Translations under genes and position numbers: made by a program
Notes under the pieces: generated by a model
Database searches by the model: none
Told to the model about the DNA's origin: nothing
Seen by the model: only the letters and a program-made list of their open reading frames with translations
Origin: a virus
IMG/VR virus record: IMGVR_UViG_3300017969_000125
Location: 1-25,571 of that record
Length of the DNA stretch: 25,571 nt
Strand: one strand, 5' to 3'
In this document: in pieces, positions 3,251-24,143 of the stretch
Position numbering within the stretch: the first letter of the stretch is position 1
How the letters are laid out: every line of letters starts with the position of its first letter

Positions 3251-4171
3251 TCAGTCACTCCAGTTCTTTGCAACGTTGAAGTTATTATAGGAGAAAATAC
3301 GTCTCCTGACTAATTTATATGTCCCATATTTGTTTGTCATAACATAACCCTCGTGTTCACATTCTTCATCCTTGACATAACAGGCAACGTCCTCAAATGC
3401 CCTGCAATTATCAATGATGAGTTCTTTAATTTCAATCAGAAGGTTATACAAATGAAACAGATTTGCAGACAATCCAGTCTCCTCAGACAGAGACTTGGGG
3501 TCGAGTTCTTTACCCTCTCGAATGTACTTATTGATGACAGTCTTAACATATGCCCCAACCTTTTGATCTGGAAACTGTACGAAACGCACCAACACTTTCG
3601 CAAGTGCAATCAACAACTTTGCACGGTTAGGTTGACGTGTGCGAACAGCAGTTGTATCGAGAAAGTTATAGTTACTGGACTCAGGCAGTTCTACATTAAA
3701 ACCGAATTGTGCCTGCATTGTCTTCATTGTTGCACCAACATATGAAGTATGAGCAGCAAACACAATGTCCTGGTTGACAACACCAGGAAACTCATAGGTT
3801 ATAGTATTGGGACGGTAACTATCCTTACCACCGAAACCAATAAAGTCACCTTGATAAACACCACTCAAACGAGGCAGATTCTCCATGCACATATGAAGAA
3901 TAGATGCGACGTGAGGTTTATCGCCATGATAAACTTCTATATCATTGTGAGTATAATTGATCTTGATCTTCTTCTTGTTGAATACACTTTTAGTACCAAC
4001 AAAAAACTTACCATTCTCGGGATTAACACCCCACACAATAGCAGGCGCACCGTCATACTTGACAGTTAGTGTGCTGTTCTTATCAGCAAACCACTTGAGG
4101 ACGTTGATAGCACCACTTCTGCCATCATTTAATATAGAATCCTCAGGATGCTCGAGATGGGTGTTTTTCAT
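3251..4171 (-). CDS. Putative nucleotidyltransferase-fold ligase-like protein, 306 aa
   Basis: The sequence carries the ordered motifs of covalent nucleotidyltransferases (DNA/RNA ligases and capping enzymes): motif I K-x-D-G as TVKYDGAPAIVWG (K38, D40, G41), a following strand FFVGTKSVFNKKK (55-68) like motif Ia, YQGDF (106-110) at the place of motif III, HEGYVM (273-278, E274-G275) as motif IV, and YKLVRRR (285-291) as motif V. In known enzymes the motif I lysine is adenylated by ATP, or NAD in bacterial DNA ligases. The C-terminal domain between motifs III and IV is long and helical. I recall an uncharacterised phage family (DUF6267) resembling this but could not check. Substrate unknown: nick or RNA sealing, or a different adenylyl transfer. 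ATG 4171 follows an AT-rich leader; two bases separate it from the next gene. Confidence 0.75.
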   Translation of the reverse strand: MKNTHLEHPEDSILNDGRSGAINVLKWFADKNSTLTVKYDGAPAIVWGVNPENGKFFVGTKSVFNKKKIKINYTHNDIEVYHGDKPHVASILHMCMENLPRLSGVYQGDFIGFGGKDSYRPNTITYEFPGVVNQDIVFAAHTSYVGATMKTMQAQFGFNVELPESSNYNFLDTTAVRTRQPNRAKLLIALAKVLVRFVQFPDQKVGAYVKTVINKYIREGKELDPKSLSEETGLSANLFHLYNLLIEIKELIIDNCRAFEDVACYVKDEECEHEGYVMTNKYGTYKLVRRRIFSYNNFNVAKNWSD

Positions 4172-6233: not shown

Positions 6234-6397
6234 TTTGACTCCGTAAAATGTGCATCTAGGTGTTCTTCGAGTTCTTCTAGAGCATTAAGTTTTTCGGATC
6301 CATCAGCATCACTCCCCAACATTTCGCTGTAGTAATACAAAGCATCTGCTAGAAGAGATCTTTGTTCATCGGTAATAGTACAGTTAAGTTTATACAT
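6230..6397 (-). CDS. Very small acidic helical protein, 55 aa
   Basis: Unassigned. 55 residues beginning MYKLNCTITDEQRSLLADAL, with an acidic second half (GSDADGSEKLNALEELEEHL). It looks like two amphipathic helices. I chose ATG 6397, which overlaps the stop of the oxygenase-like gene by eight bases; a frame extension to 6508 lies within that gene. Its own stop overlaps the next ATG as ATGA. Function unknown. Confidence 0.7.
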   Translation of the reverse strand: MYKLNCTITDEQRSLLADALYYYSEMLGSDADGSEKLNALEELEEHLDAHFTESK

Positions 6398-6944
6398 TCT
6401 GGTCAGCGATAGGGATGTTAAATGCAACAATGGACCTAGGAATGTCAGAGTACGATGGTGGGCATTCATGGAGAATTGTAGACGGGAATAGAATAATATC
6501 CCCCTCATTCACCTCAGGTTGATAACGTTCAATGGTGCCAAAGAACGGGTTAGGTAGTGGTGAATAAAACCTTGTACTCTGGTGATGTTCCTTATCAAAA
6601 TCTAGATAAAGAATTGCGGAAAGATTCCCAAACCCATGATTATGTAGGGGATGAGAATCAGCACCAACATACATCTGTGACCACATTTGCCACTCTTCGG
6701 GAGGTTCTACTTTGATTCCTGAATTGTCCAGGAAATAAGATAGTTCCTCCCTGAGTTCAGCAACGAAGGTCACTAAGTACGGTGGTCTATTATTATACTT
6801 GAAATAATCTGAATAACAAATATCTATCCTATTTTCTTCAGGATTAAGACCAACAATGTCCTTAATCCTTTGCTTTCTCTCTTGCCAATTAGGGATAGAG
6901 ATTTTATAGAAAGAGATGGAAAAGAATGGCAGTTGTTCTATCAT
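6390..6944 (-). CDS. Putative 2-oxoglutarate/Fe(II) oxygenase, 184 aa
   Basis: A double-stranded beta-helix protein resembling the phage 2OG-Fe(II) oxygenase family with an H-x-H metal pair. Visible: SHPLHNHGFGNLSAILYLDF (H101 and H103, followed by the strand L-S-A-I-L-Y-L), then GDIILFPSTILHECPPS with H159 as third iron ligand, and R170 in PRSIVAFNIPI as 2-oxoglutarate anchor. Such enzymes hydroxylate proteins, nucleobases or small molecules; the substrate here is unknown. The N-terminal 80 residues look like a helical cap. Start ATG 6944 is fixed by a strong AGGAGG seven bases upstream. It shares ATGA with the 42-residue gene before it. Confidence 0.8.
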   Translation of the reverse strand: MIEQLPFFSISFYKISIPNWQERKQRIKDIVGLNPEENRIDICYSDYFKYNNRPPYLVTFVAELREELSYFLDNSGIKVEPPEEWQMWSQMYVGADSHPLHNHGFGNLSAILYLDFDKEHHQSTRFYSPLPNPFFGTIERYQPEVNEGDIILFPSTILHECPPSYSDIPRSIVAFNIPIADQNV

Positions 6945-11077: not shown

Positions 11078-11833
11078 CTACTCGCCTACTGTACCGCCTT
11101 CCTGATCCTTTGGCAACAGGTTAGGCAAATCCCAGAGTTGACCCTGACGCCAGGCAGAAACATGCTCCTCTCTTTCACTCTGATCGAGAAGTTGAACTCT
11201 CCAACCATAATCCCCGTTAGAAATTACGGTGGGCATCAAGTTCATAGCAACTGTGATGCGATTGGGGTGATTATTAACTTTGAATCCATGAATCATGTGT
11301 GATTCCCACAAGAACAATCTACCCTCTGCACCAGTTACACAATCAAATTGATTGTACCTGGTTTCTTTATGGTATGGAATCTGAAGTGCATTATATTGTG
11401 GATATGACATGCCCAATCTTGGTCTGCCAAAATATGTGTGGGAGTGTTTCTCTGGGTCAAAGTTGACATAATATAAGGCACTAATCACCGAATTAGAATG
11501 AAAATGTGGTGATTGATATCCACCTTCATTGCATATATTGATCCAACTATCTGTGACTTGCATTGTCTCTGGGAGGTAATATCCCATGACATTTGACATA
11601 AAGTCTTCGGCACAGTTTTCTACCCATGTTCTAAACCGTGAAAAACGATCATCTTGAATTACAGAATAGTGATCTATATGGGTCAACGAATGAGATCGTG
11701 GATTTTTTATGATTTCTCCGTCTTGCTGCTCAATTTCTGCCAAAAATAAAGATTTAACTTTATCATGAAATGGACACTCCTGAACATACAAAGGAGATGG
11801 AAGTAAGTCAACTACAGTCATAACTTCAGGCAT
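11078..11833 (-). CDS. Putative 2-oxoglutarate/Fe(II) oxygenase, 251 aa
   Basis: Resembles the phage 2OG-Fe(II) oxygenase family with W-x-N and H-x-H signatures: DSWINICNEGGYQSPHFHSN (W97, N99, H110, H112), the strand SALYYVNFD (118-126), then GRLFLWESHMIHGFKVN with H182 as third iron ligand, and R192 in NRITVAMNLMP as the 2-oxoglutarate anchor. This is close to the pattern of phage proteins annotated as putative prolyl or protein hydroxylases. Substrate unknown. The start may be ATG 11833, which abuts a terminator T-run, or ATG 11821 (MTVVDLLPSPLYVQ), neither with a clear ribosome site. A late-type promoter lies at 11861-11868. Confidence 0.85.
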   Translation of the reverse strand: MPEVMTVVDLLPSPLYVQECPFHDKVKSLFLAEIEQQDGEIIKNPRSHSLTHIDHYSVIQDDRFSRFRTWVENCAEDFMSNVMGYYLPETMQVTDSWINICNEGGYQSPHFHSNSVISALYYVNFDPEKHSHTYFGRPRLGMSYPQYNALQIPYHKETRYNQFDCVTGAEGRLFLWESHMIHGFKVNNHPNRITVAMNLMPTVISNGDYGWRVQLLDQSEREEHVSAWRQGQLWDLPNLLPKDQEGGTVGE

Positions 11834-11869: not shown

Positions 11870-13207
11870 TCACTGGATGGGGTTACGTCCCAGAGACAGA
11901 TTATCTCCCGCTTCCTGTACAGCACAGTTGGCATCATCGGTAGAACCGCCATCAGCGTGGGGTTCAATGTGTCCACCGTGGTATGCGGTAGGGTCAAAGA
12001 GTCGTCCCTTGTCGATGGTCTTACCTTCGGGAGTTACCCAGTTCTGCCTCACTGCAGCACTGAACTTCTGTTCCTTGCTGAAGTTACGCTTGGGGTCCAG
12101 TTGAGTGCAGAACTCTTCAGGATTCCAGGTCTTCGTAACAATCTCACGACGGAGTTTGTTGAAGGAAGACTCACGCGAACGCATGAGTTCCTTATACACT
12201 GCCTCACGACCGTTGTTGTAAGTGTAGGTAGTGGGGTCAGTTAGGTTCATTGCGTGGGTCTTCATGTAACCTTCGATGAAACCATCTCGGTTACTGATGC
12301 TGAAGTTGTTGTCCTTCAGATCCTTCACCAGTGCAAACAAGTCAAGAACACAGTTCTTGTTAGGCAGTGCCTTCAGATCATCACCCATGAAGTTGATGAA
12401 GGACTTGAAGTCCGACTCGAACTTGTGAATGAGTTTGTCCTCAGTGGACCCGTATGCATAAGCACTCCACAGGGACTTGTCGGAGATGGTGGTATTCAGA
12501 CCACCGAAGTACACCAGTGCGAGACCAGCAATGAAGTCGTCAACCTTGCGACGGTTGATGTCTGCCTTGGAGAAGAAGTTCTTCAGTACAGACTCATACT
12601 CGGTGGCAAGATTGCGGATGGTGTTAGAGAAGTCGGAGATGACTGCGTTACGCTTCTCTGGACCATTCAGAGAGATACCGTCATTCATACGAATGAACAG
12701 TTCAGAAAGTTGATCACGAGTCGCAGAAGTAATGATCTCGATGGTAACAACTGCGTTCGAGAATGCCTGCATGATCACATTAGGCAGAGTCTCGAACATG
12801 TCGTTCTCCCCCTCAATGATCTCCACAACTTGACCAGCAATGTCATAGAATCCAGGTTGGATTCCAAACTCTCCGCGAATAAACTCCGCGAGAGTAGTGA
12901 CACGGTTGTTGGAGTCGATGTTGAGGTAATCAACAGCGCGACCTTTCCATCCCTGATAATACTGTTTGTCTGCGGCAACCTTAGAAGTAACCTGGCAGGC
13001 ATCTGTAGATGCCAGGATAAACTTAGAGGGTGCCATTCCCAGGATCACCGAAGTGATGTAGGAACGTTTGTTGTCGTTTGCCCAGCGAACTCGGGACTGG
13101 AAAGAATAGTCCGCACGGGTCTTGGGTTGCATCTCGGCGAGGAAAGACTCCACCGAATACTTGTAAAAGTCCGATTGAATAGGACCGAATGTTGCTTTGT
13201 TTGACAT
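11870..13207 (-). CDS. DUF262 + HNH nuclease-like protein, 445 aa
   Basis: Two-domain protein of the GmrSD/DUF262 type. The N-terminal part has the DUF262 (ParB/sulfiredoxin-like NTPase) pattern: SFQSRVRWANDNKRSYITSV, ILGMAPSKFILAS, then IDSNNRVTTLAEFI (97-110) in the place of the D-G-x-Q-R motif, and LSELFIRMNDGISLNGPEKR (168-186). The C-terminus is an HNH nuclease core: YHGGHIEPHADGGSTDDANC (H413, H417, N427) followed by GDNLSLGRN (N436). In bacteria such proteins cut modified or foreign DNA; in a phage it could act on host or rival phage DNA, or as superinfection exclusion. The D-S-N-N-R form lacks the usual Gly and Gln, so NTPase activity is uncertain. Codons look more GC-rich than in neighbours. 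Operator-like repeats precede the start. Confidence 0.85.
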   Translation of the reverse strand: MSNKATFGPIQSDFYKYSVESFLAEMQPKTRADYSFQSRVRWANDNKRSYITSVILGMAPSKFILASTDACQVTSKVAADKQYYQGWKGRAVDYLNIDSNNRVTTLAEFIRGEFGIQPGFYDIAGQVVEIIEGENDMFETLPNVIMQAFSNAVVTIEIITSATRDQLSELFIRMNDGISLNGPEKRNAVISDFSNTIRNLATEYESVLKNFFSKADINRRKVDDFIAGLALVYFGGLNTTISDKSLWSAYAYGSTEDKLIHKFESDFKSFINFMGDDLKALPNKNCVLDLFALVKDLKDNNFSISNRDGFIEGYMKTHAMNLTDPTTYTYNNGREAVYKELMRSRESSFNKLRREIVTKTWNPEEFCTQLDPKRNFSKEQKFSAAVRQNWVTPEGKTIDKGRLFDPTAYHGGHIEPHADGGSTDDANCAVQEAGDNLSLGRNPIQ

Positions 13208-13559: not shown

Positions 13560-14738
13560 ATGTCAGAGTTAAATCAATCAATCTTGAGACAACTCGCAAC
13601 ATCTGCAAAGGATGACATTGTTGCAGTTCCAGAAGAGAATCAGAAGATTGTTTCTGTGACAAATGCTGATAATGGATCGGAAATGGTAGCATCAGATGTG
13701 CCTGGTGAAAGTGTAATGTCAGGTGTTATCGGAAACGGTCAGATCTCAAAGGCAACTGATAATTACTTTGCCAGTGGTTCGATCTACATGAGTCAGTTAA
13801 ACTCTACATTTGGTGGTGGAAATTACTTATCCTCCAAATATAGAGGTGGTAATGTTCCGAACTGTCAATATAACAATAATGTTCCCACTGGTGGACAGAT
13901 TTATTTCAGTAATTTCCGTGGGTCAACTAAAACAATCTATGCATATTGCAATGGAAACTTTGTACATCTCCAGGCAAGATGGGAGATTTATGGAGACACT
14001 GACTGGACTTCTCAGGCAAACAAAAAAATCATCTTTAGTGGTCATGCTGGATCCTATGACACTAATCCTGCACTGAGAATTAACAATAGTGGAGACTTGA
14101 ATGGTGCTCAAGTTGAACTTGTAGGTACAGGTACTCCTAGAATTGTTGGTCGTCCAGGAAATAATGGCGGTGGTGCTGGTAACAGTGGTCTACATATCGC
14201 AAGTGCTATCAAGATTCCCGATAGTATGTGGAATGGTCAATGGGCATCTGTAGGAATCTTTGGTGCTGGAGGTGGCGGAGGAAATGGCGGTAACGGTGGC
14301 AATGGTGGCAACGGTCAACACAGCGGTAGCGTCAGATGTAACGGTTGGTTCTGTAATGGAACAAAGAGAGAATGTAATGGTGATGGTGGTAACGGAGGAA
14401 ATGGTGGTAATGGTGGATCAGGTGGCAGAGGTAGGGGTTACGAATGGAACGGAAGTGTCTGGAATTTAGTATGGCCAGGTGCCTCTGGTGGTAATGGCGG
14501 AAACGGTGGAAATGGCAGAGCAGGAAATGGCGGAAACGGTGGAAATGGCGGCGGTGGAGGTGATCTCCAGAGTTATGGTTCTGGCGGTGGCGGTGGCAAC
14601 AGCGGCAATAGCGGAGGTTATGGTCAGCAAGGTTGCGGCGGTGGTCCTAACGGAGGAAACAGTGGTAATGGAGGCAACGGCGGAGGTCCAGGCGGCGGCA
14701 AAGCAAACTACTCCCACAATGGGTATCGTTATCAGTAA
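13560..14738 (+). CDS. Glycine-rich fibre-tip adhesin-like protein, 392 aa
   Basis: The only plus-strand gene. Residues 1-130 look like a phage structural head: GQISKATDNYFASGSIYMSQ, then PTGGQIYFSNFRGSTKTIYA (109-128), a G-x-I-x-F-S-x-F-x-G motif common in tail-fibre and structural proteins. Residues 130-235 are mostly beta strands. From about 235 the chain is Gly/Asn-rich (GGNGGNGGNGG runs at 240-252, 276-288, 309-331) interrupted by more complex loops with Cys and Trp (RCNGWFCNGTKREC 259-272; YEWNGSVWNLVWPG 294-307). This matches the plan of S16-type gp38 adhesins: polyglycine-II helices in a sandwich, with variable loops that touch the receptor. Likely role: host recognition at the tip of long fibres. 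GGN codons repeat in the DNA. Homology to gp38 is inferred from composition. Confidence 0.75.
   Translation: MSELNQSILRQLATSAKDDIVAVPEENQKIVSVTNADNGSEMVASDVPGESVMSGVIGNGQISKATDNYFASGSIYMSQLNSTFGGGNYLSSKYRGGNVPNCQYNNNVPTGGQIYFSNFRGSTKTIYAYCNGNFVHLQARWEIYGDTDWTSQANKKIIFSGHAGSYDTNPALRINNSGDLNGAQVELVGTGTPRIVGRPGNNGGGAGNSGLHIASAIKIPDSMWNGQWASVGIFGAGGGGGNGGNGGNGGNGQHSGSVRCNGWFCNGTKRECNGDGGNGGNGGNGGSGGRGRGYEWNGSVWNLVWPGASGGNGGNGGNGRAGNGGNGGNGGGGGDLQSYGSGGGGGNSGNSGGYGQQGCGGGPNGGNSGNGGNGGGPGGGKANYSHNGYRYQ
14240..14700 (+). repeat. GGN-codon tandem-like repeats in adhesin gene
   Basis: Imperfect repeats of GGTGGTAATGGC / GGCGGAAACGGT type (Gly-Gly-Asn-Gly units) make up much of this part. The high self-similarity offers many sites for slippage or recombination, which could change repeat number or swap loops. 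Confidence 0.7.
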
Positions 14739-14747
14739 TCCGATTGT

Positions 14748-15833
14748 TTAATGTGGTTCTGGACCATTAAGAGGTCCAACAAATCCATATGCAACGCGCA
14801 TAGAGTTGCCTTCATGTTCCGTAGATACTTGGAAGGTAGCAAATATATTTTCTGTACTGGTACTATTTTCCCAGTTGTTTAATTCTGGTGCCCAACCTTC
14901 GGGCAACCAAGAACAATTTTCTGTTGACTGGGCAATAGATGACAGGGAATCAATATGACATTGTTTGTAATACTGATACTTTGTAAAGTTATCTTGGGCA
15001 GTAGTGCCTGCTGGCGCATCTTTCTTCTTCTTGGGCAACACATTCTGACCAAACTTTTTCTGAACCCCGTTAGAATCAAATGTGATACTTACATTCACAT
15101 AGGTATTCTCATCAATATACAATGAGTCCATCACATCAATGGTATTACTTGTACTCAAATACATCTTAGTTCTCTTACTTCCAGCAACATTTGCGAGCAA
15201 GTCCTTCACTGTCCCGACATTATCATCATTTCTAACTAAGAGAATCTCCACACTATTTTTGAGACGATTGTGAATCAAATAAGTGGGTGACAAATCATAT
15301 GAATCTTTAAGTTCTGGATCGGCAAGATTATCAATACCAGAGAAAATACTTTCCAGTTCGGATGTATTCGGATTGCCTACTAAATCCCCAATCAAATTAC
15401 ACAAGTGTTTAATACTTGCAGGGAACATTGGGAAGATTTCAAAGTCAATATGTTCTTCCACAATTTCGGTGGGATTTGCTGCATCAAATGCAAGAAATCT
15501 GTTACCCATGAAGTAGTTAAAGATGGGGTTTCTATGAATCACATCTTTACCATATGGTTGCCACTCTGTAATACCTGTAGGTGCTTTAAAAAAGAACCCA
15601 TAAAGAGTATCAATATTGACGTTTTTGAGTCCAGAAGTAGGAGACTGAGTGTATTGTCGGACAAAAATACATCCACTATCCCTTCTTTTCGAACCACGTT
15701 CATTCCATGCCTTTGAAAAGAGAGATGGATTGGCATCAACAATCTTTCTGACGTTCTCTACATCAGTTTGAGAAACTAAGTGCGGATAGTCATTCGACTT
15801 GACTAATTTTTCGAGCGATCCAAAATCTACCAT
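14748..15833 (-). CDS. Uncharacterised 361-aa protein in adhesion module
   Basis: Not recognised. The protein is soluble. An N-terminal helical part (GSLEKLVKSNDYPHLVSQTD) is followed by segments with alternating hydrophobic residues (DSGCIFVRQYTQSPTSG, then IDTLYGFFFKAPTGITEWQP), a helical middle (IKHLCNLIGDLVGNPNTSEL), and later beta-like strands (TYVNVSITFDSNGVQKKFGQ). A basic patch PKKKKDAPAG lies at about 266-275. The tail ends FVGPLNGPEPH. It overlaps the 2OG oxygenase upstream by seven bases and is the last gene of the 17160-14748 unit. It ends nine bases from the end of the convergent adhesin gene with no terminator between. It could be a modifying enzyme or a fibre-assembly factor, but nothing in the sequence decides it. 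Confidence 0.8.
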   Translation of the reverse strand: MVDFGSLEKLVKSNDYPHLVSQTDVENVRKIVDANPSLFSKAWNERGSKRRDSGCIFVRQYTQSPTSGLKNVNIDTLYGFFFKAPTGITEWQPYGKDVIHRNPIFNYFMGNRFLAFDAANPTEIVEEHIDFEIFPMFPASIKHLCNLIGDLVGNPNTSELESIFSGIDNLADPELKDSYDLSPTYLIHNRLKNSVEILLVRNDDNVGTVKDLLANVAGSKRTKMYLSTSNTIDVMDSLYIDENTYVNVSITFDSNGVQKKFGQNVLPKKKKDAPAGTTAQDNFTKYQYYKQCHIDSLSSIAQSTENCSWLPEGWAPELNNWENSTSTENIFATFQVSTEHEGNSMRVAYGFVGPLNGPEPH

Positions 15834-16381
15834 TGTTCTCCTTTATCGTAAGCAAACCATACAACGACTGAGTACCTTGTTCCTGATGTAACCTTGGCGA
15901 CCTCATGTGGATAAACCAAAGCACTTGGATAAACATGAATGGAGTTTTTATGTTTATCTAACGTATAGTTTTTCCAGAAGACCATTTCGCCACCTTCATA
16001 GTCATCATTGATTTGAAATGATGCAGTAACTGATGCAGCGTCGGCATCCATATCTGTATGATATGAAAGATATCCTCCTTCTGGGTATTTACATAACCAG
16101 TAACCACTATATTTATCGAAGACATCTCCATCTGGAAGGCACCAACGATAGTCATTCAATATCTTTGGCATCGTTCTTTTGAAGGCAGCATGAACAATGT
16201 CAAATACTTCACCCTCAGTTAAAAGAACCTGTTGCCTATGTCCCTTGAGAGAATAGTTTGCATCCTCTGCAATATCTTCAAAGTCTGGAAACTCAAAGTT
16301 CTTTAATAACTTCAGAAGTCGAAAGTATTCATCAGCATCTAATACATCATGATAATCATGTATATGATCCGAGAGATTCAT
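15827..16381 (-). CDS. 2OG-Fe(II) oxygenase, prolyl 4-hydroxylase-like, 184 aa
   Basis: Clear double-stranded beta-helix dioxygenase. Motifs: GGYLSYHTDMDADAASVTAS contains the H-x-D iron pair (H108, D110), the next strand gives FQINDDYEGGEMVFW (122-136, the usual L-N-x-x-x-Y-x-G-G-E-x-x-F pattern of prolyl 4-hydroxylases), YPSALVYPHEVAKVTSGTRY supplies the distal H159 and R169 binds 2-oxoglutarate. The family hydroxylates proline or other residues in proteins. The N-terminal 95 residues are a helical cap. ATG 16381 shares ATGA with the stop of the upstream oxygenase, so the two are co-translated. The small size is normal for phage members. Confidence 0.9.
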   Translation of the reverse strand: MNLSDHIHDYHDVLDADEYFRLLKLLKNFEFPDFEDIAEDANYSLKGHRQQVLLTEGEVFDIVHAAFKRTMPKILNDYRWCLPDGDVFDKYSGYWLCKYPEGGYLSYHTDMDADAASVTASFQINDDYEGGEMVFWKNYTLDKHKNSIHVYPSALVYPHEVAKVTSGTRYSVVVWFAYDKGEQW

Positions 16382-17363: not shown

Positions 17364-20300
17364 TTACTTATCCTTGAGTTTTTCTTCCAGATCAGAAACT
17401 TTGGCGGAGAGTTCCTTCACTGCCTCGATCAAGAGTGCGGTGAGTTTCTCATACTTAACTGCCTTGTATCCATCCTTTCTGGTGGTAACAAGTCCAGGTA
17501 ATCCGAGTGCCTCAATCTCTTGTGCGATGACGCCAGTATCTTCGCCAACGTGTCCAGTTTCATGTTCTTCGTTGTTCCACTCGAAGGTGTTACCACTGAT
17601 CGAGAGAATCTTATCAAGAGCATTGGGGATAGGAGCGATGTTATCCTTCAGTCTTTCGTCGGAAGAATAGAAGGCAACAATATCACCCGTAGCAGCAATC
17701 TGGTTGACGTTTGCGTTGAACAGGAATCCCTGGTCACGATACAGTTGTCTATAACCAAGACCATCATTCTCGGGAACTTTGGTCATTACTGGGTAGAACC
17801 ATCCACCGTTCTGAGTATCAACGATCTCAACATCATTTGCCTGAGCAGCAGTACCACTGAAAGTACCACCAGCACTGAATGTGCCGTTAACGGTCAAGTT
17901 GTTGAGAGTTGTTGAACCACTGACTCCCAAATTACCACTGATAGATCCAGAGGAGAAGGATCCAGAACCGCCATTAAATGCATTTGCAGTAATAACGTTT
18001 GCAGAGAAACTACCAGTATTATCTCTACTTACAATAGACAATCCAGTCTGATTTGTGGATGAAGTATTCATATCATCCAACAAGTCTGCGTTTAAGTTAA
18101 CGCACTTGGTTGTAGAAGATGTAATGATAGGTGGAGTACCTTGAGATGCAGTATGTACAAACTGGAAGGCGTTAATCTTACCAGTAGGTCCACACTGAAT
18201 TGTCATATTGACGCCAGTATCACCCAGGGCGGTAATAATACCAGAGTTGACATAAAGTTTAGGCGAAGTCAGAGAACCACCGTTACCAGTGTTCAGGAAT
18301 GTAAGCGTAGAGTAAGTACCAACCAGAGAGGTAACAACACCAGAGTTAGCAACAATCTCAAGAGAAGGTTGTCCCTGACCCTGTTGACCAGGACCCATGA
18401 TTACACTGGATCTAACTGCTGTAATGATACCACTGTTAATGAAGGCAGTAGGACCAAACAGTTGGTCAGTGAAGTTAAGATCAGTCGCTGTCATTGCGAC
18501 ACCGATGATGTTATCGTAACTCAGGTTTGTACCACTCATATTAGTGGCAATACCGTTTGCAATGTATGCCTGTGGAGTGGTCAGATTGTTGGAGGCATAC
18601 AGGTTAGTGACAATACCCGAGTAGATATTTGCCTCATTTGTGTACGATGTGCTGCTGTAGAAGTCGGTAATAATACCGAGGTTCGCATACAGACCATTAG
18701 TTACAGAGGCAACCTCAGAATACAGATCGGTAACAATACCCGATGGCGTAGAGAAATTCTTGCGTACCGCAAGAGTATCAATACCAGCATTGATAGCAGT
18801 CAACGTGGTTACATTGATTGTACCACCATCACACTCGATATTACCAACATCAAGTGTACCAACGAATGTACTTACACCAGCGTAAGTATCATTGATTGGA
18901 CCTTCAATGCTGATGTGAGAAGCAGGTTTGAAGGAAACATAAGTACCGACAGTTTCTACATCAAAGAGTCTAGATACACCGCCTTCATCTACAATACTGT
19001 AGTAACCATAGTTCTCCCAGGGAATACCTTGAGGAGAAATGCCTCCAGTAGTGTTGTAACCCCAGAAGTTGGCAATCTTTCTAACAATGATGCTATCGTA
19101 TGTAACACCAGTAAATGTCTGTGGAGATGCAAAGGTAACAATACCAGAAACATACAGGTGATTAACTTTAACCGTACCATTAACCTCAAGGGCATCAGTG
19201 AAGTTAAATTGACCAACACCCGACTGACCAATACCAAGTTGATCAATCTTGAAGAACTGTCTATCTCTCTCTTGAGAGACAACACCCATTCTTCTCCACT
19301 CACCTTCAGCATAGATGTGTCCAATATAACCACCAGTATTGGGGTTAGTGATAAGAGAAATATCACCAGATCTCTTTGCAGTTAATGGAGTTGAGATACC
19401 TACGGTCAGTTCTTTACCCTGAGGGGCAGTACCTTTCAGGAAGAGGTTTCTAGTTTCAATACCATCAATGGAACTGTTAGTCAACTTCTCGGTCATGTTG
19501 ACAGGACCGTAGAACTGAGAAGTTCTATTGTTGTTATCACCACCCTCAACAGTGATGCCTTCTCTTACCAGAATCTCGTCAAATACACCAGAAACTTTCT
19601 TAGTTGCCTCAGACTCTGCATCATCACCAGTGTAGGTGAAGATAGGAGCACCGATGACCTCTTCCTCACCAGTAATTGCAGACAGTTTGTTGTAACCAGT
19701 GAAGAATTCACCAGCGTCGTTCATACCAGTATAAACGACTTTACCACCATTTGCCTCTTTCTTCTGGGCGGCGAGTTGTTCATCAGAACTCAGAACTCTA
19801 TCCTGTTTTTGTGGCAGAGATGTAGAGTAGTTACCAGAACCATAACCAAGATATTCAAATGTATGACCAGAGGCACGAAGAATAGAAGGTCTACGAAGTT
19901 CCATTGGAACAATTTCGATCTTCTTAATCGTTGCGCCAGAGATAGCAGCACTCGCAACAGTACCAAACTGACCACGAATAACCGAGTTAACGTTATCGTT
20001 GGTGAATCTGACAATCTCTGCGTTAATTAAACAATAATCTCCCTTGCGGAAACCAGCAGTGTTGGTAAGAGTAATTGTAGAGTCAGTTGCTGTCATTGGA
20101 GCAGCAAGAGTTGTGCTGATACCTGTGTAGAAGGTTGCCGCTCTTGCACCCAGATTGTTCTCACCCAGACCAAGAGATCTTGCTCTCGCTCTCATGCCAT
20201 GACCAAACAGTCTGGCATCAGTAATACTATAAGCAGTGACGATTCCAGCAGTGTGTACACCGACGTTAAAGTGAATATCCGTCAGTGGTGTATTCTGATC

Positions 20301-23300
20301 AACATCAACGACAACGAATGGTCTTTCATCAAAGAAGGAATTGCCTGTTCCAACAATAGTAAATGTTTGTCCAGCAACCAGAGTATGATTGTTAGTACAT
20401 CTAACAGTTGCAACACCAGTTGCACCAGTCATTTCAATAGAAGTAATACCTACACCAGGGTTGGCGAGAGAGTATTGTGGGAGTCTTCTATCAGTTCTAG
20501 TTTCATAGTAAGGAGAAACAATATTAGGTTTATCAATCTCAATAGAAACAGATCTAGAAGTAGGAATATCAACGATCTTATGAGTTCCATTATACAATGG
20601 ATCTACGAAACCAGAGAGATCCAAACCATCGCCAACGTTGTCGAAGACAGAAACAACTTCAACAACAGCAGGAGATGTTGCAGCACCTGCTGGGAATGGA
20701 TCAATGGTCATGGTGTTACCTACACCATAAGCACAACCACCATCAATAATCTTGACACTAGAAACAGTACCAGCAGCAGAGATCTGAACTTCTGCTGCAG
20801 CACCTCTACCAATCAAGGCATTATTAACGAAGTCTGCGGCATAAATGACAGTTGCAATACCTGTGCTGTTGTTGTATCCAGCACCACCATCAATGATATT
20901 AACTTCTTTGATGGAATTGAACTTGTGTTCTACTTCACTATAGAGAGTAATAGTAGTGTTACCTGTACCAGAAACAACAGCACCAGTTACAGCAGTACCA
21001 ACATTGAATCCCTGCATAAAGTAGTTGAGGGATTCTCTTGTGAGAGACTTCTTCTTGTCGTTAGAAATAACCTTACCGATGACGGAAGGTTGTGCAAACG
21101 ATACAGAAGGTTCTGGATCAGAGTTGTAATTATCTCTATCTTGCTGTGGATAGAGGTTTCTAACGTCTTGAGAGAATGACTTGAAGGAAACACCGAAACC
21201 AAGATCTTTATCAAGAGGGATAGAACCACAGACAAGAATGAGGTTGTAGATACCATCTTGTCCAGATGTTCCAGGAATATGTGGTTTTACTTCTTGAACA
21301 CGATAGACATAGAGACTATCCTTAGACTTAGATCTTTGAACAGTAGGCAGTGCCTCAATCTGTGCCTGTGTTGTTCTCTGGTTGATCTGGTTCTTAAATG
21401 CACCAGGATCAGTTGTAATACCAGCAATAGTGAACTGTTTTCTACTCAGAATACTCGTAACTGGATTCTCACCATTGAAACCAACATTGTAGGTTCCGTC
21501 TGGGTTGTTGACAGAATCAATATTTCTAAGAGTTACTAAGTCATCAACAGCAAGTTTGTGATCCTTTTCTGTCGTAATGGTAATAATATCATTTGCCCAT
21601 GTAGCATTCTTGACGATCTTAACGTTTCTAAGTTGTGTTGGGTTAGTTAAGTCTGCACTCAGATAAGAGGCAGATGTAATACCAACTGTCTTAGATTCTT
21701 GAAGAACGAAACCAGGAGTAGGTGGACGTGCATCAACGTGTTCCTTAGGAATAACGTATCTTGCTCTATAAAGTCTATCTTGCAGAGATCTGTTATCTAC
21801 TCTTCTTTCCAGGTATGTGGATCCTGATTCTTCACCAATCTGACCAACTCCAAGACTATAGAGTGCTGGATAAATGGTGTTGGAAACAGAACTTGGGTCA
21901 ACAGTAATATACCAGTTATTGTTTACACTATCAAATTGAATTGGGTGTCCGAGTTGTCCAGGTTCTTTATCGGAAACCGTAGAAATGATCTTAAGTTTAC
22001 CGCCTCCATTAGAGAGACCAGTTAAAGGTCTACGGGAGAGAGCATCGTTCAGAGTTGCGGCAAGTTGAATTCTATTTGCAGCAAGAGAACCACCAGTAAT
22101 GGCATAGTAAATCTTATCATTGATAATGCCATTTGGTGTCTCACCAGTGTCAGAAAAGACTCTAACTTTCTCACCAGTGAGTAACTGATGGTTTTCAATC
22201 AGAGTAAAGACGTTAGAAACAATAAAGTTGACGCCCGCATTGCGAACAACATTGTATACCTTACGATACGAAGTTGTGATACCAGAGGCACCAGACTGCA
22301 TCAAGATTGGTGCAGAATATACATTAGGAACGGCAGCACCAGTAGTGGTATCTACCAGAGCAAGTTTCAGAGTATCACCTGCTCTTGCACCAACTCGATA
22401 AGAGTCAACCTGAGAAGGTGGAACAACTTCCTGAGTATCATATCCATAGAGATAAAGTCTACCAGTATCAGCAATACCAATAGTCTTCTGAACATCCAGA
22501 GTCAACCAAGAGATTGTGGTGTCTTCTGCTGTAAGTTCTCTAGGTGGAATGATGTGAGTAACATAACCAACATCGTCTCTATCAAAGGAGAATGGTCTGA
22601 ATCCACTAGACTCAAGAGCAGTTTGACCGAAGTTGGAGTTAGAGTTGGTAATAGAGGCGTCACCACCTCTTTCTGCCTGGAAGTGTCTTGCGAACGCAAT
22701 AGCAAACACCGAAACGATCTGAACAACAGCGTTGTTCCTCACTCTCATGTGAGAGGTTTCGTATGTTGGTTTGTAAATGGCACTGGAGTTACTGTGAAGA
22801 GGTCTCTCAGCATCAGCAACAGAAGTATCATCATTAAAGATTGCAGTGTCTGGGTTATACAGAATGAATGCATTATCATCCTTCTGAATAGAGATACCCG
22901 TGAACTGTGCAACAACCATCGACTTGAATCCAGTCGCCTTGTCGCCATCACAATCCATGCCGTTCAGACCATAAACCGAACGGAGAGAACAGTTAAAGAT
23001 ATATGGAGATGCAGATCCTACAGTGTCAGGTTCAATAATAACAGAGGAGTTCTGAATCTCTTGGGGAATTGGCAGAGGGTTGCCAGGAACAAGAGGAGAA
23101 ATATATCTAAACTCAGTATCACTTAAGACTTCATCAACAACGAAAGAACCGTTATATGCATTGATGGATGTAGTAATACCAGCAATAAGAACGGGAGTCT
23201 CTTTGAAAAGATTGTGTGGTTTGTTTGTGGTTACAGTAATCTGTGTAGAAGCAGTATTGCCATCACCAGACTTAATAGAACTGATGCCAACTGGGTCAGC

Positions 23301-24143
23301 AGCAAGGTCACCAACAATTCTAAATTCGTCGATGTTGGGTTCGAAGTCATCAAACGTTGGGAAGTCTCCAACAGGTCTACCAGAAGCATCACCATATGCT
23401 CTAGCAACCTTATAGTAGAACATATCGAGGTCGGTCAGTTGAGAATCCGTACCGTCGATAATGACATTATTTACACCGTCTGCATACTGGAAGCAAGACA
23501 GTTTGTGGTGAGAGAATGTTGGTTTCTTAGTGTTACTGTCGAAGTCATAATATGCAACTTTAGCAAGATCGGCATCAAACAGAGAGAATGCCGTGAAGTA
23601 ACAAGTACCAGTAACTCTAAAGATCGAAGTGTATGTGAACCTATCGTCTTCAGGATCAGGAACATACAGAGGACGAATCTTGGTTTTACGGAGATCCAGA
23701 CCAATGATAGACGTACCACGAGGCAGGATTACGCCACCTTCAGTAGAGTTGTACTTGTAAAGATCGTTGTTTCTGTCAAGTACGTCAAAGTTGGTTTCTG
23801 TTGTAAACTCATTCAGAGTTACTTCAACGAAACCATTATTTCTTCTTGCCTTAAACTGGGCAGTACCACTGTTATCTACAACAGTATATCCAGGTCTATT
23901 ATCAATATAGTGCGTTCCTGGGAACGTCAGAATCGTTGTTCTGTCGATCTTATCGTTATTTTTTCCTGTCTGGTACGAAAATCTTGCCGCCTCGATCAGT
24001 GCCCTTTGAATTGTCTTAAAAGGACGAGTCAGAGAATTACCTCTGTTCTCAATACTGTCTGTAGCATCAAAGTCGGAAGGGTTTACATATAAAATATTAC
24101 CTTCAGCGTTCTTGAGGAAATTCTCTAGTCTTGAAAGAGGCAT
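17364..24143 (-). CDS. Giant tail fibre/virion protein with S74 self-cleaving chaperone, 2259 aa
   Basis: Very large beta-rich structural protein. The N-terminus (LYVNPSDFDATDSIENRG, then RPFKTIQRALIEAARFSYQT at about 40-60) has the pattern of pectin-lyase-like beta-helix fibres of cyanophages. The middle is a long array of beta repeats rich in Gly, Thr, Val and Ile. At about 1770-1990 a repeated S-G-I-V/I-T motif recurs (PSGIVTDLYSE, YSGIVTNLYAS, NSGIITAVRSS, NSGVVTSLVG), a beta-helical repeat. The last 100 residues are a peptidase S74 intramolecular chaperone: YSSDERLKDNIAPIPNALDK, where the Ser before D2162 and K2166 match the Ser-Lys dyad, then TGVIAQEIEALGLPGLV and a terminal coiled coil. 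Cleavage before the serine would release the last ~99 residues after trimerisation. Probably a long side fibre touching the host. A late-type promoter lies 30 bases upstream. Confidence 0.93.
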   Translation of the reverse strand: MPLSRLENFLKNAEGNILYVNPSDFDATDSIENRGNSLTRPFKTIQRALIEAARFSYQTGKNNDKIDRTTILTFPGTHYIDNRPGYTVVDNSGTAQFKARRNNGFVEVTLNEFTTETNFDVLDRNNDLYKYNSTEGGVILPRGTSIIGLDLRKTKIRPLYVPDPEDDRFTYTSIFRVTGTCYFTAFSLFDADLAKVAYYDFDSNTKKPTFSHHKLSCFQYADGVNNVIIDGTDSQLTDLDMFYYKVARAYGDASGRPVGDFPTFDDFEPNIDEFRIVGDLAADPVGISSIKSGDGNTASTQITVTTNKPHNLFKETPVLIAGITTSINAYNGSFVVDEVLSDTEFRYISPLVPGNPLPIPQEIQNSSVIIEPDTVGSASPYIFNCSLRSVYGLNGMDCDGDKATGFKSMVVAQFTGISIQKDDNAFILYNPDTAIFNDDTSVADAERPLHSNSSAIYKPTYETSHMRVRNNAVVQIVSVFAIAFARHFQAERGGDASITNSNSNFGQTALESSGFRPFSFDRDDVGYVTHIIPPRELTAEDTTISWLTLDVQKTIGIADTGRLYLYGYDTQEVVPPSQVDSYRVGARAGDTLKLALVDTTTGAAVPNVYSAPILMQSGASGITTSYRKVYNVVRNAGVNFIVSNVFTLIENHQLLTGEKVRVFSDTGETPNGIINDKIYYAITGGSLAANRIQLAATLNDALSRRPLTGLSNGGGKLKIISTVSDKEPGQLGHPIQFDSVNNNWYITVDPSSVSNTIYPALYSLGVGQIGEESGSTYLERRVDNRSLQDRLYRARYVIPKEHVDARPPTPGFVLQESKTVGITSASYLSADLTNPTQLRNVKIVKNATWANDIITITTEKDHKLAVDDLVTLRNIDSVNNPDGTYNVGFNGENPVTSILSRKQFTIAGITTDPGAFKNQINQRTTQAQIEALPTVQRSKSKDSLYVYRVQEVKPHIPGTSGQDGIYNLILVCGSIPLDKDLGFGVSFKSFSQDVRNLYPQQDRDNYNSDPEPSVSFAQPSVIGKVISNDKKKSLTRESLNYFMQGFNVGTAVTGAVVSGTGNTTITLYSEVEHKFNSIKEVNIIDGGAGYNNSTGIATVIYAADFVNNALIGRGAAAEVQISAAGTVSSVKIIDGGCAYGVGNTMTIDPFPAGAATSPAVVEVVSVFDNVGDGLDLSGFVDPLYNGTHKIVDIPTSRSVSIEIDKPNIVSPYYETRTDRRLPQYSLANPGVGITSIEMTGATGVATVRCTNNHTLVAGQTFTIVGTGNSFFDERPFVVVDVDQNTPLTDIHFNVGVHTAGIVTAYSITDARLFGHGMRARARSLGLGENNLGARAATFYTGISTTLAAPMTATDSTITLTNTAGFRKGDYCLINAEIVRFTNDNVNSVIRGQFGTVASAAISGATIKKIEIVPMELRRPSILRASGHTFEYLGYGSGNYSTSLPQKQDRVLSSDEQLAAQKKEANGGKVVYTGMNDAGEFFTGYNKLSAITGEEEVIGAPIFTYTGDDAESEATKKVSGVFDEILVREGITVEGGDNNNRTSQFYGPVNMTEKLTNSSIDGIETRNLFLKGTAPQGKELTVGISTPLTAKRSGDISLITNPNTGGYIGHIYAEGEWRRMGVVSQERDRQFFKIDQLGIGQSGVGQFNFTDALEVNGTVKVNHLYVSGIVTFASPQTFTGVTYDSIIVRKIANFWGYNTTGGISPQGIPWENYGYYSIVDEGGVSRLFDVETVGTYVSFKPASHISIEGPINDTYAGVSTFVGTLDVGNIECDGGTINVTTLTAINAGIDTLAVRKNFSTPSGIVTDLYSEVASVTNGLYANLGIITDFYSSTSYTNEANIYSGIVTNLYASNNLTTPQAYIANGIATNMSGTNLSYDNIIGVAMTATDLNFTDQLFGPTAFINSGIITAVRSSVIMGPGQQGQGQPSLEIVANSGVVTSLVGTYSTLTFLNTGNGGSLTSPKLYVNSGIITALGDTGVNMTIQCGPTGKINAFQFVHTASQGTPPIITSSTTKCVNLNADLLDDMNTSSTNQTGLSIVSRDNTGSFSANVITANAFNGGSGSFSSGSISGNLGVSGSTTLNNLTVNGTFSAGGTFSGTAAQANDVEIVDTQNGGWFYPVMTKVPENDGLGYRQLYRDQGFLFNANVNQIAATGDIVAFYSSDERLKDNIAPIPNALDKILSISGNTFEWNNEEHETGHVGEDTGVIAQEIEALGLPGLVTTRKDGYKAVKYEKLTALLIEAVKELSAKVSDLEEKLKDK

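Follow-up and report, generated by a model that had tools for sequence, protein, structure and literature searches.

DUF6267, a family of T4-like marine phages, is predicted to be a ligase-type nucleotidyltransferase

The window analysed here is the whole of a single virus record, IMGVR_UViG_3300017969_000125 of IMG/VR (25,571 bases), and this report concerns one of its genes, which encodes a 306-residue protein of the family DUF6267. From its predicted fold and residue conservation, DUF6267 very probably belongs to the covalent nucleotidyltransferase superfamily of ligases and capping enzymes, a placement made in an initial annotation of the DNA and now borne out by two independent structural models, in which ligases rank first, and by the invariance of the motif residues. 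We further propose, with a probability of about 0.6, that DUF6267 is a minimal, single-domain nucleotidyltransferase of ligase type with ligase chemistry. The gene occupies exactly the coordinates first given for it and lies on the minus strand, which had been left unstated, with an ATG at 4171, a stop at 3251, and 306 codons:

3251-4171, minus strand: DUF6267 (phrog_455) coding sequence for a predicted ligase-type covalent nucleotidyltransferase (open reading frame, profile matches, AlphaFold2 model, and fold comparison)

The protein had been described as unassigned. This holds for function and not for family, as it matches Pfam DUF6267 (PF19782; E = 8e-92, 308.8 bits versus a cut-off of 27) and phrog_455, both families of unknown function. 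A literature search, with subscription journals mostly outside its reach, found no paper naming DUF6267.

Predicted fold and conserved motifs of DUF6267

The AlphaFold2 model of the window protein, built with 69 relatives, had a mean pLDDT (predicted local distance difference test) of 94.9 and a pTM (predicted template modelling score) of 0.90, and its strands bearing motifs I, III, IIIa, IV, and V follow the order of the nucleotidyltransferase fold. When the candidates supplied by Foldseek were compared with this model by VIA-align, all of the top 50 rows were polynucleotide ligases. Naegleria RNA ligase led them (Z 9.0, 3.7 Å over 179 residues, a Z that barely exceeds values often reached by unmatched models, which weighs against our reading), and the rows also held T4 Rnl2 (Z 7.1), Trl1 (7.1), trypanosome REL1 (6.9), archaeal RNA ligases (about 6.5), and DNA ligases (about 6). 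DUF6267 includes a short subfamily, to which the window protein belongs, and a long one of about 400 residues; the second AlphaFold2 model was made for a homologue of the long form, which shares 36% identity with the window protein. Here, ligases occupied VIA-align rows 1 to 48 of 50, the T4 gp30 DNA ligase (6dt1) scored Z 6.2, and the first unrelated protein appeared at Z 5.0. Foldseek's list against the PDB for the long form was of no use, being headed by carbonic anhydrases, none of which was among the top VIA-align rows. In BFVD, an Atu_ph07 RNA ligase (E 3.7e-4) is among the matches that rank behind DUF6267 itself. Structure prediction had been suggested as a check in the initial annotation, and at the level of fold it did group the protein, which bears the putative nucleotide-accepting lysine K38, with the ligases.

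Conservation was examined in an alignment of 223 DUF6267 sequences, including the long subfamily and the distant members from DLP6, XG4, and XaC1. At least 98% conservation was seen at 32 of the 306 positions, and the nine residues implied by the motifs first quoted (K38, D40, G41, K61, D109, E274, G275, V277, and K286) all fall among these 32, which is more than chance would give (hypergeometric p about 5e-10). When the protein was shuffled 200,000 times, 44 of the shuffles matched the motif series written as a loose regular expression. Every motif first quoted for the protein is present, namely K38-Y-D40-G41, F57-V-G-T-K61-S, Y106-Q-G-D109-F, H273-E-G-Y-V277, and Y285-K286-L-V288. The elements, all on the minus strand, are as follows:

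4139-4159, minus strand: N-terminal conserved element H5-L-E-H-P-E-D11 (H5, H8, E10, and D11 each kept in 99% or more of 220 sequences)
4049-4060, minus strand: motif I, K38-x-D40-G41, at the end of strand 34-38 (K38 in 221/222, D40 in 222/222, G41 in 221/222)
3986-3997, minus strand: candidate motif Ia, G59-T-K61-S62, after strand 56-59 (K61 in 222/222)
3842-3859, minus strand: motif III, V105-Y-Q-G-D109-F, in strand 105-113 (D109 in 222/222, Q107 in 220/222)
3740-3751, minus strand: candidate motif IIIa, H141-T-x-Y144, in strand 136-145 (H141 in 223/223)
3413-3628, minus strand: helical insert between motifs III and IV, residues 182-253 (helices in both models, alignment)
3341-3355, minus strand: motif IV, H273-E274-G275-Y-V277, with strand 275-280 (E274 and G275 in 221/221)
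3302-3319, minus strand: motif V, Y285-K286-L-V288-x-R290, with strand 283-287 (K286 in 218/218, R290 in 215/217)

Further invariant residues are H141, Y126, N122, N214, K249, R290, F293, N297, H5, H8, E10, and D11, of which H141 likely marks the motif IIIa position. As had been noted, a long insert separates motifs III and IV, and it is bigger still in the long subfamily; its helical character, claimed for the whole, is predicted for the C-terminal part (helices 182-195, 203-218, 225-232, and 236-253 in the window-protein model). In the VIA-align alignment, model residue 1 pairs with T4 Rnl2 residue 3. With the register taken from these aligned-range starts, H5-L-E-H-P-E-D11 possibly falls on the Y-S-S-L-E-N element of T4 Rnl2, so that S-L-E-N of Rnl2-like ligases and H-L-E-H of DUF6267 may be a common N-terminal element.

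Several further observations count on the same side as the Z caveat above. No sequence profile ties DUF6267 to any ligase family: the Pfam scan of the window protein gave DUF6267 and one noise match only, with neither PF09414 nor PF01068, and hhalign against an alignment of 28 Rnl2 sequences returned a probability of 0.2. Searches of the PDB with the single sequence and with the 69-sequence profile yielded nothing useful and NCBIfam gave no match, so that sequence-level proof of ligase homology was sought in these ways and not obtained. Foldseek comparison of the short-form model with the PDB was weak, with E-values of only about 0.1 (T4 Rnl2 at about 0.1). There are also family-wide, fixed deviations from canonical ligases. 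Motif Ia has Lys where ligases have Arg, motif III is invariably Asp rather than Glu, and K286 is the single lysine of motif V, the place of the second K-x-K lysine being held by V288, which is Val or Ile in each of the 218 sequences not gapped at that position. Finally, an OB or C-terminal domain is absent, the protein ending 20 residues past K286. We nevertheless assign DUF6267 to the superfamily because the two models agree on it and the motif residues are invariant and stand in the right order; it is the consistency of both predicted models, rather than the Z of 9 alone, that carries the claim of a nucleotidyltransferase fold.

By anatomy, the closest described precedent for DUF6267 appears to be RLIG1 (human C12orf29 and Yasminevirus RLIG1), a proven 5'-3' RNA ligase that consists of the nucleotidyltransferase domain alone, without an RNA-binding domain (PMC11494293). 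RLIG1 has a His at motif IIIa (His195 in YspRLIG1) and one reported motif V Lys, and a Dali search with it ranks Naegleria RNA ligase first (PMC11494293). DUF6267 resembles it in having only the nucleotidyltransferase domain, K-x-D in motif I, a probable IIIa histidine (H141), and one motif V lysine, as well as in its best structural neighbour, Naegleria RNA ligase; RLIG1 itself is not among the structures listed. Since RLIG1 is active with a similar anatomy, the objection from the absent appended domain and second lysine is weakened. The two differ at motifs III and Ia, where RLIG1 has Glu and Arg and DUF6267 has Asp and Lys, and in the helical segment that DUF6267 has inserted between motifs III and IV. 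Pfam scans of DUF6267 proteins, made without a direct RLIG1 profile or structure comparison, found no RLIG1 family. With T4 RNA ligase 2 and Naegleria RNA ligase, DUF6267 shares the predicted fold and the order and spacing of the motifs, whereas those enzymes carry an extra C- or N-terminal domain and a K-x-K motif V, and profile-level similarity to Rnl2-like ligases is lacking. With T4 gp30, it shares the superfamily fold and possibly a role in replication in cyanophages, but it has neither a DNA-binding or OB domain (motif VI) nor a PF01068 match.

Distribution of DUF6267 and the missing gp30

DUF6267 was found by tblastn in 469 phage records. By name, 371 of them are Synechococcus phages, 61 Cyanophages, and 24 Prochlorococcus phages; the remainder are partly phages of Methylophilales, Pelagibacter, Vibrio, Stenotrophomonas, and Pseudoalteromonas, and a more distant query added a Xanthomonas jumbo phage. 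The carriers are nearly all T4-like marine phages, and the gene, labelled T4-GC 71 in P-SSM2, S-SSM7, and S-PM2, is present in nearly every T4-like marine cyanobacterial phage. The nearest named DNA relatives of the window are marine Synechococcus phages, which cover at most 10% of it, and the closest named protein relative is that of the large cyanophage S-SSM7 (55% identity), where the gene is likewise surrounded by small unknown genes. In bacterial and archaeal genomes, a scan turned up 15 loci, the majority in metagenome-assembled genomes, where they are probably phage contigs. One isolate assembly, that of Nonlabens xiamenensis, holds a DUF6267 gene on a 188 kb contig (L277) that may be a co-sequenced phage genome.

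We surveyed other ligases in 17 phage genomes, comprising 16 DUF6267 carriers (13 Kyanoviridae together with XG4, XaC1, and DLP6) and T4. DUF6267 was present in 13/13 Kyanoviridae genomes. In these 13, no DNA ligase of the gp30 type (PF01068) or the NAD type (PF01653) and no Rnl1 was found above the cut-off, no full Pnkp match was seen (short kinase-domain matches occurred in HTVC008M and Melnitz only), and an Rnl2-type ligase was found in S-CREM1 alone. DUF6267 is the only ligase-type enzyme found in most of the Kyanoviridae genomes tested. The three carriers outside the Kyanoviridae hold both DUF6267 and a PF01068 ligase, and XG4 and XaC1 additionally have Pnkp, Rnl1, and Rnl2. Strict mutual exclusion of DUF6267 and DNA ligase was rejected on this account, and the two are not interchangeable everywhere, which is a further point against a replicative ligase reading.

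Cyanophages lack gp30 and, for the most part, RNase H, and the question of how they then seal their DNA has stood in print since 2010 (PMC2984593). Clokie et al. (2010) did not find g30 in cyanomyoviruses, where most RNase H genes were likewise absent; they thought substitution by host enzymes more probable and allowed for unrecognised distant homologues (PMC2984593). That DUF6267 replaces the missing gp30 in Kyanoviridae is an idea we advance tentatively, with the odds somewhat against it. A host ligase may also be the explanation in the gp30-less genomes surveyed here. In T4, rII mutations relieve the need for gp30. For this reason, the absence of rIIA and rIIB from cyanophages (PMC2993671) fits the host-ligase explanation.

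The HIGH-type partner and the proposed function

The typical cyanophage gene order is gp43, uvsX, gp41, mazG, small genes, sometimes phrog_1462, DUF6267, and a HIGH-type 'cytidylyltransferase'. Among long-form loci with enough flanking DNA, gp41 lies upstream in 30/30 and the HIGH-type gene directly downstream in 63/64. The short subfamily, to which the window protein belongs, adjoins the HIGH-type gene in only 9 of 113 loci, which again tells against our reading; S-SSM7 and P-SSM2 keep that gene elsewhere in the genome. A HIGH nucleotidyltransferase of the phrog_395 type was found in all 16 DUF6267 phages tested, and T4 lacks both genes; phrog_395 is a broad model, and of 14 cellular genomes used as controls, 10 also matched it. 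A standing partnership with phrog_1462, the gene upstream, was considered and dropped, with a match in only 7 of the 16 phages. Fusions of DUF6267 with the HIGH-type enzyme occur in metaG-MbCM1 (728 residues), S-PM2 (591 residues), and several uncultured phages, and the phrog_455 model itself covers both parts. The metaG-MbCM1 fusion (L318:1854-4040) is labelled 'NrdB ribonucleotide reductase A subunit' and appears to be misannotated. In the S-PM2 entry AJ630128 (L271; record positions 103037-104222), DUF6267 is split across two overlapping frames, whereas A0A0M6VVW4, likewise from S-PM2, is a single fused protein of 591 residues; the split is either a sequence error or a real frame change.

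The subtype of the HIGH-type partner is indicated only by weak matches to nicotinamide mononucleotide (NMN) adenylyltransferases. A T4-like capsid-targeting leader, defined by a pattern modelled on T4 rules (PMC9026906) as [FY] at position 4, F at 7, and [IL]xE at 8-10 (as in MKKFSTFISEA), was found in 37/87 partner proteins versus 16/1652 background open reading frames; examples are L083:6944-8122, L258:7939-9108, and L259:4399-5559. This agrees with the detection of the partner, as T4-GC190, in the S-SM1 virion (PMC3037559) and suggests that the partner is packaged in the phage head and may be injected. As a general feature of DUF6267 itself, the leader was discarded, being found in only 2/219 proteins, those of DLP6 (L270:6317-7552, MMKFTQFLAES) and Melnitz (L255:4941-6197, MINFSKYITED). 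In the Pelagibacter phage HTVC008M, DUF6267 and the HIGH-type enzyme are separated by a P-loop kinase (L272:8563-9225; zeta toxin/AAA_33) that weakly matches polynucleotide kinases.

From these features we infer self-adenylation, ligation, a substrate, and a biological role for DUF6267 along the following lines. K38 would react with an NTP, probably ATP, to form lysyl-AMP, with D109, H141, E274, K286, and probably R290 holding nucleotide and metal. The AMP would be passed to a 5'-phosphate end, which would then be joined to the neighbouring 3'-OH, and the helical insert would grip the substrate, probably in place of an appended OB or C-terminal domain. We hypothesize that in Kyanoviridae the enzyme may seal nicks from phage DNA replication, a role we prefer over tRNA repair mainly on account of the order of the genes and the absence of end-healing enzymes.

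The initial annotation had offered two readings, an RNA-repair ligase against host tRNA-cutting defences and a new adenylyl- or guanylyltransferase. The first, a ligase that would reseal RNA, possibly tRNA, after cleavage by host defences, belongs within the ligase reading, so that its probability overlaps with that given above, and we regard it as improbable. In its favour, nick-sealing RNA ligases and Trl1 lead the structural comparisons, RLIG1 with its similar features ligates tRNA halves (PMC11494293), and HTVC008M has the kinase just described. The survey of the 13 Kyanoviridae genomes, with no full Pnkp, no Rnl1 above the cut-off, and a single Rnl2-type ligase, argues the other way, as do XG4 and XaC1, where DUF6267 is an extra enzyme beside a set of Pnkp, Rnl1, and Rnl2, and the window, which contains no tRNA gene; the specific claim of repair of host-cut tRNA found no support.

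More serious, though still unlikely, is a covalent nucleotidyltransferase without ligase activity, in which the acceptor of K38-bound AMP or GMP would be a small molecule, a protein, or the 5' end of an RNA, in a two-enzyme system with the neighbouring HIGH-type enzyme. The constant co-occurrence of the two genes in the 16 phages, their near-constant adjacency in long-form loci, their fusions, and the presence of the partner in the S-SM1 virion all speak for it, as do the lack of an attached DNA-binding domain and the occurrence of gp30 alongside DUF6267 in three phages. The nearest folds, however, are RNA and DNA ligases, with capping enzymes only low in the Foldseek list, and the breadth of phrog_395 lessens the force of the co-occurrence. 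To our knowledge, no known pathway pairs ligase-type and HIGH-type enzymes. An inactive ligase relative with a structural or regulatory role would account for the motif III Asp, the single motif V lysine, and the missing domain, and is very improbable given that K38, D40, K61, D109, H141, E274, and K286 are practically invariant across the 223 sequences and are their best conserved positions. Joining all parts of the preferred ligase reading, in which DUF6267 would be the replicative ligase long missed in marine T4-like phages, a minimal enzyme without appended domains that replaced gp30 in Kyanoviridae and acts in a new two-enzyme system with a head-packaged HIGH-type nucleotidyltransferase, gives a picture that is, as a whole, improbable.

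T4-like phages rank among the most abundant marine viruses, and a predicted function for a gene so widely shared among them opens the missing-ligase question to a direct test with a single purified protein. Should a ligase of 300 residues with no appended domain prove active, it would also merit attention both as a minimal enzyme and as a reagent.

Other genes in the window

Three separate genes for 2OG-Fe(II) oxygenases lie within these 25 kb, and three further products could be described, in part by eye:

6390-6944, 11078-11833, and 15827-16381, minus strand: 2OG-Fe(II) oxygenase genes
11870-13207, minus strand: 445-residue protein with a weak GmrSD_N (DUF262-like) match and a C terminus that looks HNH-like by eye
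17364-24143, minus strand: 2259-residue protein that ends in a peptidase S74 chaperone domain and is probably a tail fibre
13560-14738, plus strand: 392-residue open reading frame with a long glycine-rich C-terminal half

The last of these runs opposite to the window's other assigned genes, and to the eye its product looks like a receptor-binding adhesin.
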